From a virus, in IMG/VR virus record IMGVR_UViG_3300036832_001201, positions 1-37,937 of that record: a stretch of 37,937 nucleotides of DNA; one strand, 5' to 3'. The notes beneath the pieces are model-generated. The model was not told where the DNA came from, did not search any database, and saw nothing but the letters and a program-made list of their open reading frames with translations. The position numbers and the translations under genes are program-made. Positions 3,417-37,937 of this stretch are shown here, piece after piece. Within the stretch, counting starts at the first letter, position 1. Each line of letters starts with the position of its first letter.

Positions 3417-3536
3417 CTAGCTCGGCGGGAGAGGTTGCGGGACCAGCACCTTACCCACGCCAGGGTAGTCCACGATTATGGCGGGCGGTTCGACTAGCCA
3501 CCCTTCCCGGGCGGTGGTGGTGAACACCCGTCGCAT
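3417..3536 (-). CDS. 39-aa hypothetical peptide
   Basis: This short ORF reads MRRVFTTTAREGWLVEPP, then AIIVDYPGVGKVLVPQPLPP. It has the composition of a real beta-rich small protein rather than a shadow. The ATG at 3536 follows GGCGG and lies inside the 3' end of the excisionase-like gene (43 nt overlap), so expression would be coupled to it. It ends with TAG at 3417. No family can be named with certainty. Conservation among related phages would settle whether it is real. Confidence 0.5.
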   Translation of the reverse strand: MRRVFTTTAREGWLVEPPAIIVDYPGVGKVLVPQPLPPS

Positions 3537-3751
3537 CCGCCGGTGCCCGCGGTCCGGTTGCGCACGGGCTCTACCTGCTGATCTCTGATCCAGGCGAGGA
3601 CAGCCGCGCGTTCATAATAAATTGTTTTGCCGACCCGAATGTACGGCGGCCCGATGCCCTGTTGACGCCAGTTCTTCAGCACGCGCAGGCATTTATTGAT
3701 GCCCGCGGCCGTGTCGTGTTCGGTATCGTAGCCTTCAAGGAGGTTCAGCAT
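3494..3751 (-). CDS. Excisionase/AlpA-like HTH protein
   Basis: This 85-aa protein contains a winged-helix HTH of the MerR/excisionase type: CLRVLKNWRQQGIGPPYIRVGKTIYYERAAVLAWI in sections (helix, wing IRVGKTIYY, second helix). Such proteins bind DNA as excisionases or small repressors. ATG at 3751 has GAGGGC just upstream. A TTG at 3781 is an alternative start. The C-terminal tail ends in CDGCSPPPPGKGG, which overlaps the 39-aa ORF in another frame. It faces a second gene of the same general type across a repeat-rich control region. Confidence 0.75.
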   Translation of the reverse strand: MLNLLEGYDTEHDTAAGINKCLRVLKNWRQQGIGPPYIRVGKTIYYERAAVLAWIRDQQVEPVRNRTAGTGGCDGCSPPPPGKGG

Positions 3752-3807
3752 GCCGCCCTCGCGTTCATAAACGATGCGCAAGGGTGCACTGAGATACCCG
3801 GAACTAC

Positions 3808-3848
3808 CCGGGACATTCAGATGCTATTTTAGGGGTCGAATGTCCCGG
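3808..3848. promoter_or_regulatory. Candidate operator: 11-bp inverted repeat
   Basis: CCGGGACATTC at 3808-3818 and GAATGTCCCGG at 3838-3848 form a perfect 11-bp inverted repeat. A further TACCCGG lies at 3795-3801, just beside the left arm. The site is in the divergent region between two HTH genes and is a likely binding site for one or both products. Confidence 0.55.
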
Positions 3849-4969: not shown

Positions 4970-6783
4970 GAGGGCAGGCTCTTTCGTTCACGCAGATCAC
5001 GATCCAATGCAACGCACCATCCATAGTGTTTTTTCAAAATATCAATATCGTTCTCAACTGCGCCAAATAGAGTTTTCTTTCTGCGGTTGATTTTTTCCTT
5101 TATGATTCCCCTCCACTGCTTTATTTCTTTTTCGTCGCACGGTTGGCGATTCAAAAGAATTACAACAATTGACGTCAACGACGTTACCGAGTAAGTGACT
5201 TTGTCACGCCATTGCTCGATGACCGCGCGCTCATCATGGGCCTCCGCTTCGATCTTGCGAAGCGTTCGATAGGAGGCGATGACGTGCCGCCAATCTGGAT
5301 GGTTTTTGTCCGCCTGCATTTCATCGAACTTCAACGTCGCCCCATGGTGCTGCATCACGCGGCCCATGAGTTGAACGCCTTCCGTTCCGCTATCTATATG
5401 CAACAATTCAATGTTCTCGATCCTTATAACCGGATCGGTTGGCGGCTCTGGCGGCCATTGATCATCACCGTCATCGTCCGGCTCCTCATCTGGATCGGCG
5501 CTTGGCGGCGCTAAATCCATAGCATCCATAATCGCCCTACCAACGTATTGCTTCACTGCAAATTCAGACGACGAGTCGAAACTCACATTGCACGCAACAT
5601 CAGGAAGACATCGCGCCCCACGCCCGATGATCTGAAGAATGCGATTACAGATAGAGGCATTGCAAAGAAGAACAACCTCACTAACGTGGATCGAGTCCAG
5701 CCCCTCACCCGCCATACCGACATGCACGAGCACATCGAGTGTCGGATGACGCTGACCATCCTCATCTTTTTTTGGGCAAAATTGCCTTAGCACATCCTTA
5801 TTCTCATCGTCGGATCGGCCAAACTCTCCTGTCCCAACCCAATCGACGCGCAGCTCTGGATACATCGCAGAGACTTGTTCGCACACTAGCTTTGCATGCG
5901 AAACGCACATCGCGCTGATCAGCACTTGAAGTTTCCATCCAGTCGCAGTCCGCTCTCGCAGCATACGTTCAACAGGAATCGAGACTAGCGGAGAGACATA
6001 TCGCGGCGACCATCGCATCTTGCGCTTGATGCACAACCTTTCTATCGCATCCGGCGCATCACTTCCAGCTTCCTGCACTAATTCATCGGTAGTCCAAATT
6101 TCAGTTTTAAGGTTTTCGTCGCTAGTTGTTTCAATGCGATAGCTGTATGCATGCCCAATGAGCTTCTTGATGACTCCTTCTTCCTTGGCTTCACGATACT
6201 TCACCTTAACATGTGGAGCGCCAAAGGCGCTGTCATCATTTGGACGCATCGGCGTAGCGCTCATAGCGAGCAAGAATGCGCGATTGAGTCCGAGTACTGC
6301 GCGACCCCAAGTTTTTTCAATTCCATAATGATGGTACTCATCAACTACGATCATCCATTGTCCAATGGATAGGAGATTAATGACGTTATCCATTCCGCGC
6401 CGCTCAACAAGCGACTGGATTGTGATTGCGAACACTTGTTTGAGATTCATCTTGTGGTCGCGCAGCGACCGCGATCCAGCGTGGCGCACATCCACAATCG
6501 TATTTGGTCCGTCAACACCAGCATCCGTGAGATCTCGATGCCCATCGAGAACGAATTGATCCAATTGAGCGTCTGTTGGAAAGATAACAAGTAAACGATT
6601 ACATATGCCTAACTTCATTTTTAATGAATATACATAACATGCTGCTAATGTCTTACCGTATCCGGTCGGCAACTTTGCATTAACCATCAAACGATCTTTG
6701 CTCTCTTCGATGACCATCCTCTGGCCGATGCGCGGCTTTTTCGGGAATGACATTTCTGGCATAGCGGTTGCAGGTTCCACCAT
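4954..6783 (-). CDS. SF2 DEAD/DEAH-type helicase
   Basis: This 609-aa protein has the superfamily 2 motifs in order: PRIGQRMV (Q-motif-like, about 18-24), Walker A LPTGYGKT (38-45), motif II VVDEYHH (146-152), motif III SATPMR (175-180), motif V GMAGEGLDS (356-364) and motif VI QIIGRGAR (384-391). It is most like ResIII/UvsW-type helicases that unwind branched DNA, or the translocase part of restriction-like enzymes. The N terminus overlaps an upstream HNH ORF by 97 nt in the -1 frame. The DNA is visibly more AT-rich than its neighbours, which suggests separate acquisition. Confidence 0.9.
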   Translation of the reverse strand: MVEPATAMPEMSFPKKPRIGQRMVIEESKDRLMVNAKLPTGYGKTLAACYVYSLKMKLGICNRLLVIFPTDAQLDQFVLDGHRDLTDAGVDGPNTIVDVRHAGSRSLRDHKMNLKQVFAITIQSLVERRGMDNVINLLSIGQWMIVVDEYHHYGIEKTWGRAVLGLNRAFLLAMSATPMRPNDDSAFGAPHVKVKYREAKEEGVIKKLIGHAYSYRIETTSDENLKTEIWTTDELVQEAGSDAPDAIERLCIKRKMRWSPRYVSPLVSIPVERMLRERTATGWKLQVLISAMCVSHAKLVCEQVSAMYPELRVDWVGTGEFGRSDDENKDVLRQFCPKKDEDGQRHPTLDVLVHVGMAGEGLDSIHVSEVVLLCNASICNRILQIIGRGARCLPDVACNVSFDSSSEFAVKQYVGRAIMDAMDLAPPSADPDEEPDDDGDDQWPPEPPTDPVIRIENIELLHIDSGTEGVQLMGRVMQHHGATLKFDEMQADKNHPDWRHVIASYRTLRKIEAEAHDERAVIEQWRDKVTYSVTSLTSIVVILLNRQPCDEKEIKQWRGIIKEKINRRKKTLFGAVENDIDILKKHYGWCVALDRDLRERKSLPSWLSL

Positions 6784-36469: not shown

Positions 36470-36535
36470 CCAACCGTCGGTCGAGCAGACGCAAAGCAGG
36501 CAAAGCGGCGCGGAGAAGCCTGCAAAATGGGAAGG
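36470..36535. repeat. Short patch of NNNGC pentanucleotide repeats
   Basis: Units such as ATAGC, AGAGC, TGAGC and AAAGC follow one another between the small gene and the 229-aa gene. GCAAAGC occurs at 36491-36497 and 36500-36506. The pattern is the same as in the long tract at the window end. In the + frame it reads as a false N-terminal extension of the next gene. Confidence 0.6.
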
Positions 36536-36544
36536 ACAAATCAA

Positions 36545-37234
36545 ATGAAACGCAAGACGATCGCCAAGAAGACAACGACGGATGAAGTCAAGAAATCAAC
36601 ACCAATTCTCAAACCAGCAGATGCCTCAATAAGAATCAAGGCGCCGAACTTTGCGCGTGCGACTGTGACCATCGTTGGCACCGCGCCATACTTGCAGAAC
36701 CGCTTCAGTTCGGAGAACAGAGCAAAAATGGAGGAAACACAAAAAGCTGGCAGTGCAGCCAAGAAAGTAAAGCGCGCCAAACCGCCGAAGGACTTTGAGA
36801 AAGTATACCAAGGCTCGCTGCACATTAGTCAGAAGGGTTGGCACGGCATTCCTGCAACAGCCATACGTAATGCGCTAATTGAAAGTTGTAGATTAACAGA
36901 AATGGAAATGACGCGAGCGCGCATGTGTATTTTTGTTCTCGAAGATGGCTTGGATCGTGATGATCTTTCGCCGTTAATAAAGATAGATGGCAAACCAGAA
37001 ATGCACGTCGAGCGCGTGCGCATCGGCATCAACTCGACGGACCTCGCAGCGCGCGGCATCTTCAAGAAATGGTCGGCGAAGGTGACGCTGGAATGGGATA
37101 ACGATGTTTTCAAAGCCGACGATGTTTACAATTTGCTGGCGCGCGCCGGACGGCAAGTTGGCATTGGCGCTGGCCGACCATTGAGCAAGACATCGGGCGG
37201 CACCGGCAAGGGCACTTTCAGAGTGGAGATGTGA
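36545..37234 (+). CDS. Conserved phage protein of unknown function
   Basis: The 229-aa protein starts at ATG 36545 after GGAAGGAC. The frame is open to 36443, but the extra residues are translated repeat. Conserved blocks are TVTIVGTAPYLQNRFSSENR, HGIPATAIRNALIESCR, a region with EMHVERVRIG, then FKKWSAKVTLEWD and RAGRQVGIGAGRP. I recall related proteins in many unrelated phages, often beside a partner like the next gene. No function is established. The glycine-rich GIGAGRP near the C terminus and mixed alpha/beta pattern merit structure prediction. Confidence 0.75.
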   Translation: MKRKTIAKKTTTDEVKKSTPILKPADASIRIKAPNFARATVTIVGTAPYLQNRFSSENRAKMEETQKAGSAAKKVKRAKPPKDFEKVYQGSLHISQKGWHGIPATAIRNALIESCRLTEMEMTRARMCIFVLEDGLDRDDLSPLIKIDGKPEMHVERVRIGINSTDLAARGIFKKWSAKVTLEWDNDVFKADDVYNLLARAGRQVGIGAGRPLSKTSGGTGKGTFRVEM

Positions 37235-37235
37235 G

Positions 37236-37709
37236 ATGAGCATCAAGGACGAGTTGCTGGCGATCAAGGGTGATGAGGATTTCCTGGTGCCATTGGATGC
37301 GGTCGAATGGGCAAAGGATAATCCTAAGTCCGATCTTTATGCGGCGCTGGAGTGGAATGACAGCAAGGCGGCGCACGAGTATCGACTTTCTCAAGTGCGT
37401 CACTTAGTTAGAATACACCTCGTTTTCGAAGAAAGCAACGTGAGGTCATTCGTGTCTCTTTCGATTGATCGCTCGCGTGATGGTGGCGGCTATCGTGAGG
37501 TCAATGATGTTTTGGCCAGCGAACAGCTGCACGAGATCCTGCTGAGGGATGCATTGAATGAGCTTGATCGCGTGAAAAGACGTTATGGGCAGATAAAGGC
37601 GCTTCAGCCAATTTGGCAAACTCTCGGCAAGGTGCGAAAGTCGCAGAAGGCTAAGCAAAGCAGAAGGCGACGAAAGGGAGGTGGGAGCGCTCACATTGGC
37701 GCAGCATAG
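37236..37709 (+). CDS. Conserved phage protein, partner of the 229-aa protein
   Basis: This 157-aa protein has the pattern LEWNDSKAAHEYRLSQVRHL, VSLSIDRSRDGGGYREVNDV and a C-terminal coiled helix (LRDALNELDRVKRRYGQIKA). I recall similar proteins next to relatives of the 229-aa protein in other phages. Its start is 1 nt after that gene's stop. The last about 20 residues (AKQSRRRRKGG and on) are encoded by repeat-tract DNA, so the tract seems to have spread into the gene end. Function unknown. Confidence 0.75.
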   Translation: MSIKDELLAIKGDEDFLVPLDAVEWAKDNPKSDLYAALEWNDSKAAHEYRLSQVRHLVRIHLVFEESNVRSFVSLSIDRSRDGGGYREVNDVLASEQLHEILLRDALNELDRVKRRYGQIKALQPIWQTLGKVRKSQKAKQSRRRRKGGGSAHIGAA

Positions 37710-37937
37710 CAGGCGATGCGTAGCAAAGCTGAGTCTTGTTTAGCGACGCAAAGCACAGCAGGCTCAGCCTGGCGTGGCACAGCTAGGCGGCGCATGGCTG
37801 AGCAAAGCAGGCATGGCGAAGCGCTGACTGGCAAAGCAGAGTATCGCAATGCATAGCGGAGCAAAGCAGGCGTAGCGTTGCAAAGCAAAGTCCAGCAAAG
37901 CTAAGCGGAGCAGGCAAAGCAGAGTTTGCTTTGCAAC
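37650..37937. repeat. Degenerate pentanucleotide (NNNGC) repeat tract
   Basis: From inside the last codons of the 157-aa gene to the window end, the sequence is a near-continuous run of 5-nt units ending in GC, such as AAAGC, ATAGC, TAAGC, GGAGC, GTAGC and ATGGC, with some 4-nt AGGC units. GCAAAGC occurs nine times (37655, 37723, 37748, 37802, 37831, 37861, 37880, 37895 and 37914). The units vary too much for simple slippage, and no regular spacers are present. No gene is evident in 37710-37937. The tract continues off the window. Confidence 0.8.
37914..37934. repeat. Hairpin at the end of the repeat tract
   Basis: GCAAAGCA (37914-37921) and TGCTTTGC (37927-37934) form a perfect 8-bp stem around a 5-nt loop. 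It is the only inverted copy of the common GCAAAGC unit. No T-run is seen after it before the window ends. Confidence 0.55.

Follow-up and report, generated by a model that had tools for sequence, protein, structure and literature searches.

The closest described counterpart of the locus reported here is VIPR, a CRISPR-like, RNA-guided DNA-binding system of phages described recently in a preprint (PMC13142463). Its parts are the Vipr proteins, a set of accessory genes (vap1–6) and vrRNAs made of GGY/NN pentamers that are read with a one-base skip; the constant triplet is given as “GGY or a related consensus”, relatives of Vipr bind the repeat as RNA, and seven types are distinguished (PMC13142463). 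Type II is exemplified by Escherichia phages SUSP1 and SUSP2 and by a Pseudomonas fulva prophage, and four vrRNAs were reported for SUSP1, one upstream and three downstream (PMC13142463). Applied to the SUSP2 locus, a hidden Markov model of the kind used below found four NNGGT tracts, each with about 9–13 repeats and two on each side of the gene pair; they agree with the SUSP1 vrRNAs in kind and number and not fully in placement.

The DNA analysed (the window) is a virus record from IMG/VR, 37,937 bases long, and by its structural genes (head-tail connector, capsid and internal virion protein) it belongs to a tailed, podovirus-like phage. Near its end a conserved gene pair is followed by a pentanucleotide tract, inside which the record stops (Table 1). 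This tract is very probably the start, a quarter of a kilobase, of a VIPR vrRNA array, that is, guide-RNA genes of the phage. The VIPR kind is known already; what is new is its A-repeat (AGY) variant.

Table 1. Positions of the vipr, vap-like and array features in the window
Feature	Position	Strand	Evidence or remark
Short array-like remnant upstream of vipr (GCAAAGC-A^GGC-AAAGC)	36490–36520	+	Other loci also have upstream arrays
vipr gene (229 aa, predicted RAMP-fold protein, phrog_4652)	36545–37234	+	Profile search, hhalign, AF2 model, PHROG
Codon of Vipr residue N52	36698–36700	+	No AGY-type Vipr has an acid here
Codon of Vipr residue A209, in glycine-rich loop GIG-A-GRP	37169–37171	+	Acidic (E or D) in 83 of the 85 distinct Viprs of GGY type
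vap-like accessory gene (157 aa, phrog_15946)	37236–37709	+	3′ end overlaps array start
Probable vrRNA array (NN-[A/G]GY pentamers, 4-nt A^GGC step between units)	37697–37937	+	Periodicity, HMM, unit parsing; cut by contig end
Array unit 1 (9 repeats)	37712–37760	+	NN = GA GT AA TG CT TT GA AA AC
Array unit 2 (9 repeats)	37761–37809	+	NN = TC CT GT AC TA GG AT TG AA
Array unit 3 (11 repeats)	37810–37868	+	NN = AT GA GC CT AA AG AT AA AT GG AA
Array unit 4 (8 repeats)	37869–37912	+	NN = GT GT AA AA CC AA TA GG
Array unit 5 (incomplete)	37913–37937	+	Last 13 nt inverted

A first-pass annotation of this DNA had called the gene pair one of unknown function. An 11-row profile of the 229-aa protein was run by hmmsearch against the PDB and had one match, 36pp (“SUSP1 Vipr protein”, E 5e-5), and hhalign aligned the protein to SUSP2 Vipr over its full length (probability 93%, E 2.6e-7). 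Two Gordonia phages, UmaThurman and Pipp, were matched by both Vipr families and so form a link between them. The AF2 model, of modest confidence (pLDDT 71), had its best PDB matches among the Cmr, Csm and type VII Cas7 RAMPs. With homology to known Viprs and a predicted RAMP fold, the two marks of a Vipr, the 229-aa protein is identified as a Vipr (RAMP) protein. Pfam gave at most weak, scattered matches to it (best E 0.024), and PADLOC gave nothing. The 157-aa partner is conserved adjoining vipr, the position of the accessory gene in VIPR systems, and was designated vap-like. No homology to the SUSP2 accessory protein was detected by hhalign (probability 0.2), and a fold search returned winged-helix matches that were weak and non-significant (MecI, E 0.42), none of them convincing.

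The same annotation had claimed a 5-nt rhythm for positions 37650–37937, and this was borne out. Lag-5 identity was 0.477, compared with 0.271 ± 0.028 in dinucleotide shuffles (z 7.2, 0 of 1000 as high). GC..GC pairs at a spacing of 5 reached 27 per 200 nt, the maximum of the window, against a window mean of 2.4, and exactly nine copies of GCAAAGC, the number first given, lie on the plus strand. The strict rhythm runs from about 37697 on; positions 37650–37696 belong to the 157-aa gene, at its 3′ end, and hold scattered units. Lag-3 identity showed no rise (0.249), in accord with the earlier view of the tract as non-coding, and a coding role was dropped on this ground.

Among the 40 pentamers of the window, position 4 was G in every case and position 5 was C or T in 39, while position 3 was A in 26, G in six, T in five and C in three; positions 1 and 2 varied freely, 14 NN dinucleotides being seen. 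Training a five-state cyclic hidden Markov model on the window together with its closest relatives gave the consensus N-N-[A 0.54/G 0.27]-G(0.82)-C(0.88), with 0.06 and 0.01 bits of information at the two variable positions and 0.40, 1.05 and 1.35 bits at the three constant ones. The unit first written as NNNGC thus keeps its pentamer period but is better written NN-[A/G]GY; the looser form had been seen because AGY is relaxed in some members of the window's clade. Long intergenic pentamers beside vipr, with a constant triplet and hypervariable NN, are the kind of tract by which VIPR is recognised. Here the triplet is AGY/DGY, and it was accepted as VIPR because the description admits a “related consensus” (PMC13142463).

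The rhythm is broken mainly by steps of 4 nt (A^GGC), at 37712, 37761, 37810, 37869 and 37913, splitting the array into 9, 9, 11 and 8 repeats and one cut unit. As had been noted, the tract enters the 3′ end of the gene pair, the array starting in the region of the 157-aa gene's stop codon (TAG, within ATAGC-AGGC). Complete units numbered 396 across 54 loci, and 345 of them were 4 modulo 5 in length (5n+4 nt), most with 7–13 repeats. The array architecture described here is compact, its exact 5n+4 units being set head to tail. The last 13 nt (37925–37937, TTTGCTTTGCAAC) are the reverse complement of 37877–37889; they are probably an artefact of the contig end, and a hairpin is possible. On folding single units, unit 2 alone did far better than shuffles, indicating that the units have no common hairpin. 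No match above the gathering score, hammerhead ribozymes included, was obtained with Rfam 15 in the window or nine related loci, and the tract contained no identical direct repeats with unrelated spacers between them, as looked for in a CRISPR array test.

A DNA-only pattern search of viral contigs recovered 18 records, 14 of which encode a homologue of the 229-aa protein (42–71% identity). Protein-profile scans for relatives matched 246 in one case and at least 481 in another, which assigns a large set of environmental phages to the VIPR kind, itself newly described. At 105 of 108 loci with distinct genes, an array lay no more than 700 nt from vipr or vap, and a single array was farther off than 2 kb. 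The order seen most often was vipr-vap-array, the same as in the window. That the tract belongs with the conserved gene pair, a prediction whose test had been set beforehand, was thus upheld both by these loci and by the DNA-only search. Two of the three loci lacking an array are cut 324 and 558 nt past the gene (L064 and L065, respectively); the third (L178), a distinct vipr locus with ample flanks in which the model found no array, is unexplained. Arrays also adjoined homologues in Cyanophage Cy-LDV1, Gordonia phage Ecliptus and Mycobacterium phage Donkeykong, and in Azohydromonas aeria and Rhodoplanes serenus plasmid 1, which were the sole relatives found in the genome collection and among plasmids, respectively.

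Several loci deserve separate mention. AGY arrays were present on three contigs (L009, L017 and L123) with no vipr gene detected, one of them (L009) having vap; these are probably fragments cut at the array, and arrays without a vipr of their own are possible. Rhodoplanes serenus “plasmid 1” (NZ_LR026982.1, L240) carries phage head and tail genes, a VIPR-like locus and a GGY array (6057–6377), and looks like a phage or phage-plasmid. In Donkeykong (NC_051648.1, L024), gene 48 (3447–3833), annotated as a hypothetical protein, lies almost wholly over a vrRNA-like array (3465–3811) and is probably not a real gene.

The locus resembled VIPR type II in its homologous Vipr RAMP with a G-loop, its small adjoining accessory gene, its carriage by a phage, and its tandem pentamers of two hypervariable and three constant bases with a similar number of repeats per unit. 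It differed in several respects. The type II triplet is GGY, whereas that of the window is AGY, relaxed to DGY; type II has separate RNAs with a long structured 3′ tail, whereas the units here follow one another head to tail, joined by 4-nt A^GGC steps, and have no such tail; and the SUSP2 accessory protein (vap1-like) is unrelated to the 157-aa vap-like protein. Because of the missing long tail between units and the unrelated accessory protein, the locus was not assigned to type II. The loci of Cy-LDV1, Ecliptus, Donkeykong, Rhodoplanes serenus plasmid 1 and Azohydromonas aeria had a Vipr homologue, adjoining head-to-tail arrays and A^GGC steps in common with the window, but unlike the window all have GGY and an acid at Vipr position 209 or 52. 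Class 1 CRISPR-Cas systems (Csm, Cmr and type VII Cas7 RAMPs) share the RAMP fold and, presumably, protein copies along a guide RNA; they have CRISPR repeats with contiguous spacers, whereas the window array would inform by two bases in every five.

Most relatives use GGY, and the window's clade uses AGY, partly relaxed. The first constant base was A 0.54, G 0.24, T 0.14 and C 0.08 at the window locus, and A 0.37 and G 0.40 in a much relaxed relative (L040). On the Vipr tree, AGY occurred in the window's clade and, separately, in L021 and L126. Alignment columns were first ranked on 83 rows, and the final set held 100 distinct Viprs (15 AGY, 85 GGY). Position 209, in the glycine-rich loop, was picked among several perfect or near-perfect columns since it is followed by L021, which lies outside the main clade. 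An exception to 209 alone was L119, with A209, E52 and GGY, and a two-site rule, linking GGY with an acid at either 209 or 52, was formulated after L119 had been seen. Later data were concordant: L124 and L126, reached through a search for AGY arrays, had C209 and C52, and L138, found last, had A209, E52 and GGY. In all, an acid at 209 or 52 was present in every GGY-type and no AGY-type Vipr, with 0 violations in the 100 distinct Viprs. Column 61 paired with 209 also gave zero errors. Arg168 was absent in all AGY Viprs and missing from some GGY Viprs too.

One or two amino acids of Vipr appear to determine the letter of the repeat, and the acidic residue may be what reads the guanine. Position 209 is the better supported part of the rule, and 52 is less certain. 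The tree counts only 4 changes, and with all four independent contrasts concordant a sign test gave p 0.125, so that the co-variation of acid and scaffold, seen in sequences with only 3–4 independent switches, is suggestive. Base composition or shared ancestry might instead account for the AGY/GGY difference in a VIPR array, with no contact between the protein and this base. Most AGY Viprs do fall in one clade and the independent switches are few, as this would predict. On the other hand, L021 and L126 switched outside the main clade and lost the acid there too, L119 and L138 retained GGY with A209 but carry E52, and an acid rule on a single column made 2 errors at 209 against at least 9 at any other column. 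We regard composition or ancestry alone as the less likely account, though one of some weight. What is on offer is a concrete protein-RNA rule: a Vipr with an acid at 209 or 52 is accompanied by a first constant base G, and a Vipr without one by A. If true, it would make the scaffold specificity of these RNA-guided proteins explainable, and testable by single substitutions.

The first-pass annotation had allowed a role for the tract as DNA or as RNA. The RNA side of that proposal has been strengthened and narrowed to a guide-RNA (vrRNA) array, while a replication, recombination or DNA-binding array found no support. As a cis-acting element, the pentamer tract would be bound as DNA by Vipr and/or vap at an origin of replication, a partition site or a recombination site. 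Its constant place beside the gene pair would suit such a site, as would the ATPase gene that follows the tract at one locus (L002). However, NN is hypervariable while the unit borders are exact, there are many units per genome (tens in L045), and Vipr is homologous to RAMPs and has relatives that bind the repeat as RNA (PMC13142463); a DNA array is accordingly very unlikely. A functionless pentanucleotide microsatellite decaying after replication slippage would fit the low-complexity rhythm and the AAAGC units that are common in the window, but can practically be dismissed, since Tandem Repeats Finder made no call in the tract, across 108 distinct loci in several host groups the drift falls mainly on two positions out of five, the 4-nt step recurs, and the identity of the constant base tracks a protein residue; the earlier statement that the period is kept while the letters drift, as in no plain microsatellite, agrees with this.

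Beyond what was directly observed (the array anatomy, the vipr/vap link, the homology and RAMP fold of Vipr, and the co-variation), a mechanism for the vrRNA array can be proposed, largely by analogy with type II. Transcription of the array would follow the direction of vipr and vap, and the transcript may be cleaved, or divided in some other way, at A^GGC into RNAs of about 8–16 pentamers, a step proposed here from the array itself. Copies of Vipr, a small Cas7-like RAMP, would each bind one constant triplet and hold the variable NN outward; these bases would pair with double-stranded DNA, one target base being skipped per repeat, and the complex would block transcription of competing phages or prophages, an anti-phage function. 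The window's clade would have A (partly relaxed) rather than G as first constant base because its Vipr lost the G-reading acid, at 209 in the G-loop or at 52.

Targets were sought in three ways. When 737 decoded guides were compared with a 2.1-Mb pool (0.85 Mb earlier), a 1-nt skip gave no clear excess over skips of 0, 2 or 4; units 1 and 2, written as exact 1-nt-skip patterns, matched nothing in viral contigs; and a 14-repeat Azohydromonas guide, with up to 3 mismatches allowed, gave nothing above chance in 300 relatives. Since the prey may be unsequenced or absent from the DNA searched, the missing targets neither support nor refute the model.

The relaxation of the first constant base in the window's clade raised the idea that this base has itself joined the code. 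Three bases per repeat would then be readable and recognition nearly contiguous, which would bring the VIPR code closer to a CRISPR-like guide; we consider this improbable.

Some faint pentamer-like letters (AAGC, ACAGT, AAAGC) were also seen in non-coding DNA at 880–1040 of the window, and these may be what is left of an array that has decayed. In other phages of the window's clade, arrays were very long and ran to tens of units: at 5517–6777 and 6983–8110 in L045 (about 2.4 kb in all), at 5211–6404 and 7794–8597 in L044, and at 5316–6527 in L040. The guide sets of these phages are far larger than that of the type II example.
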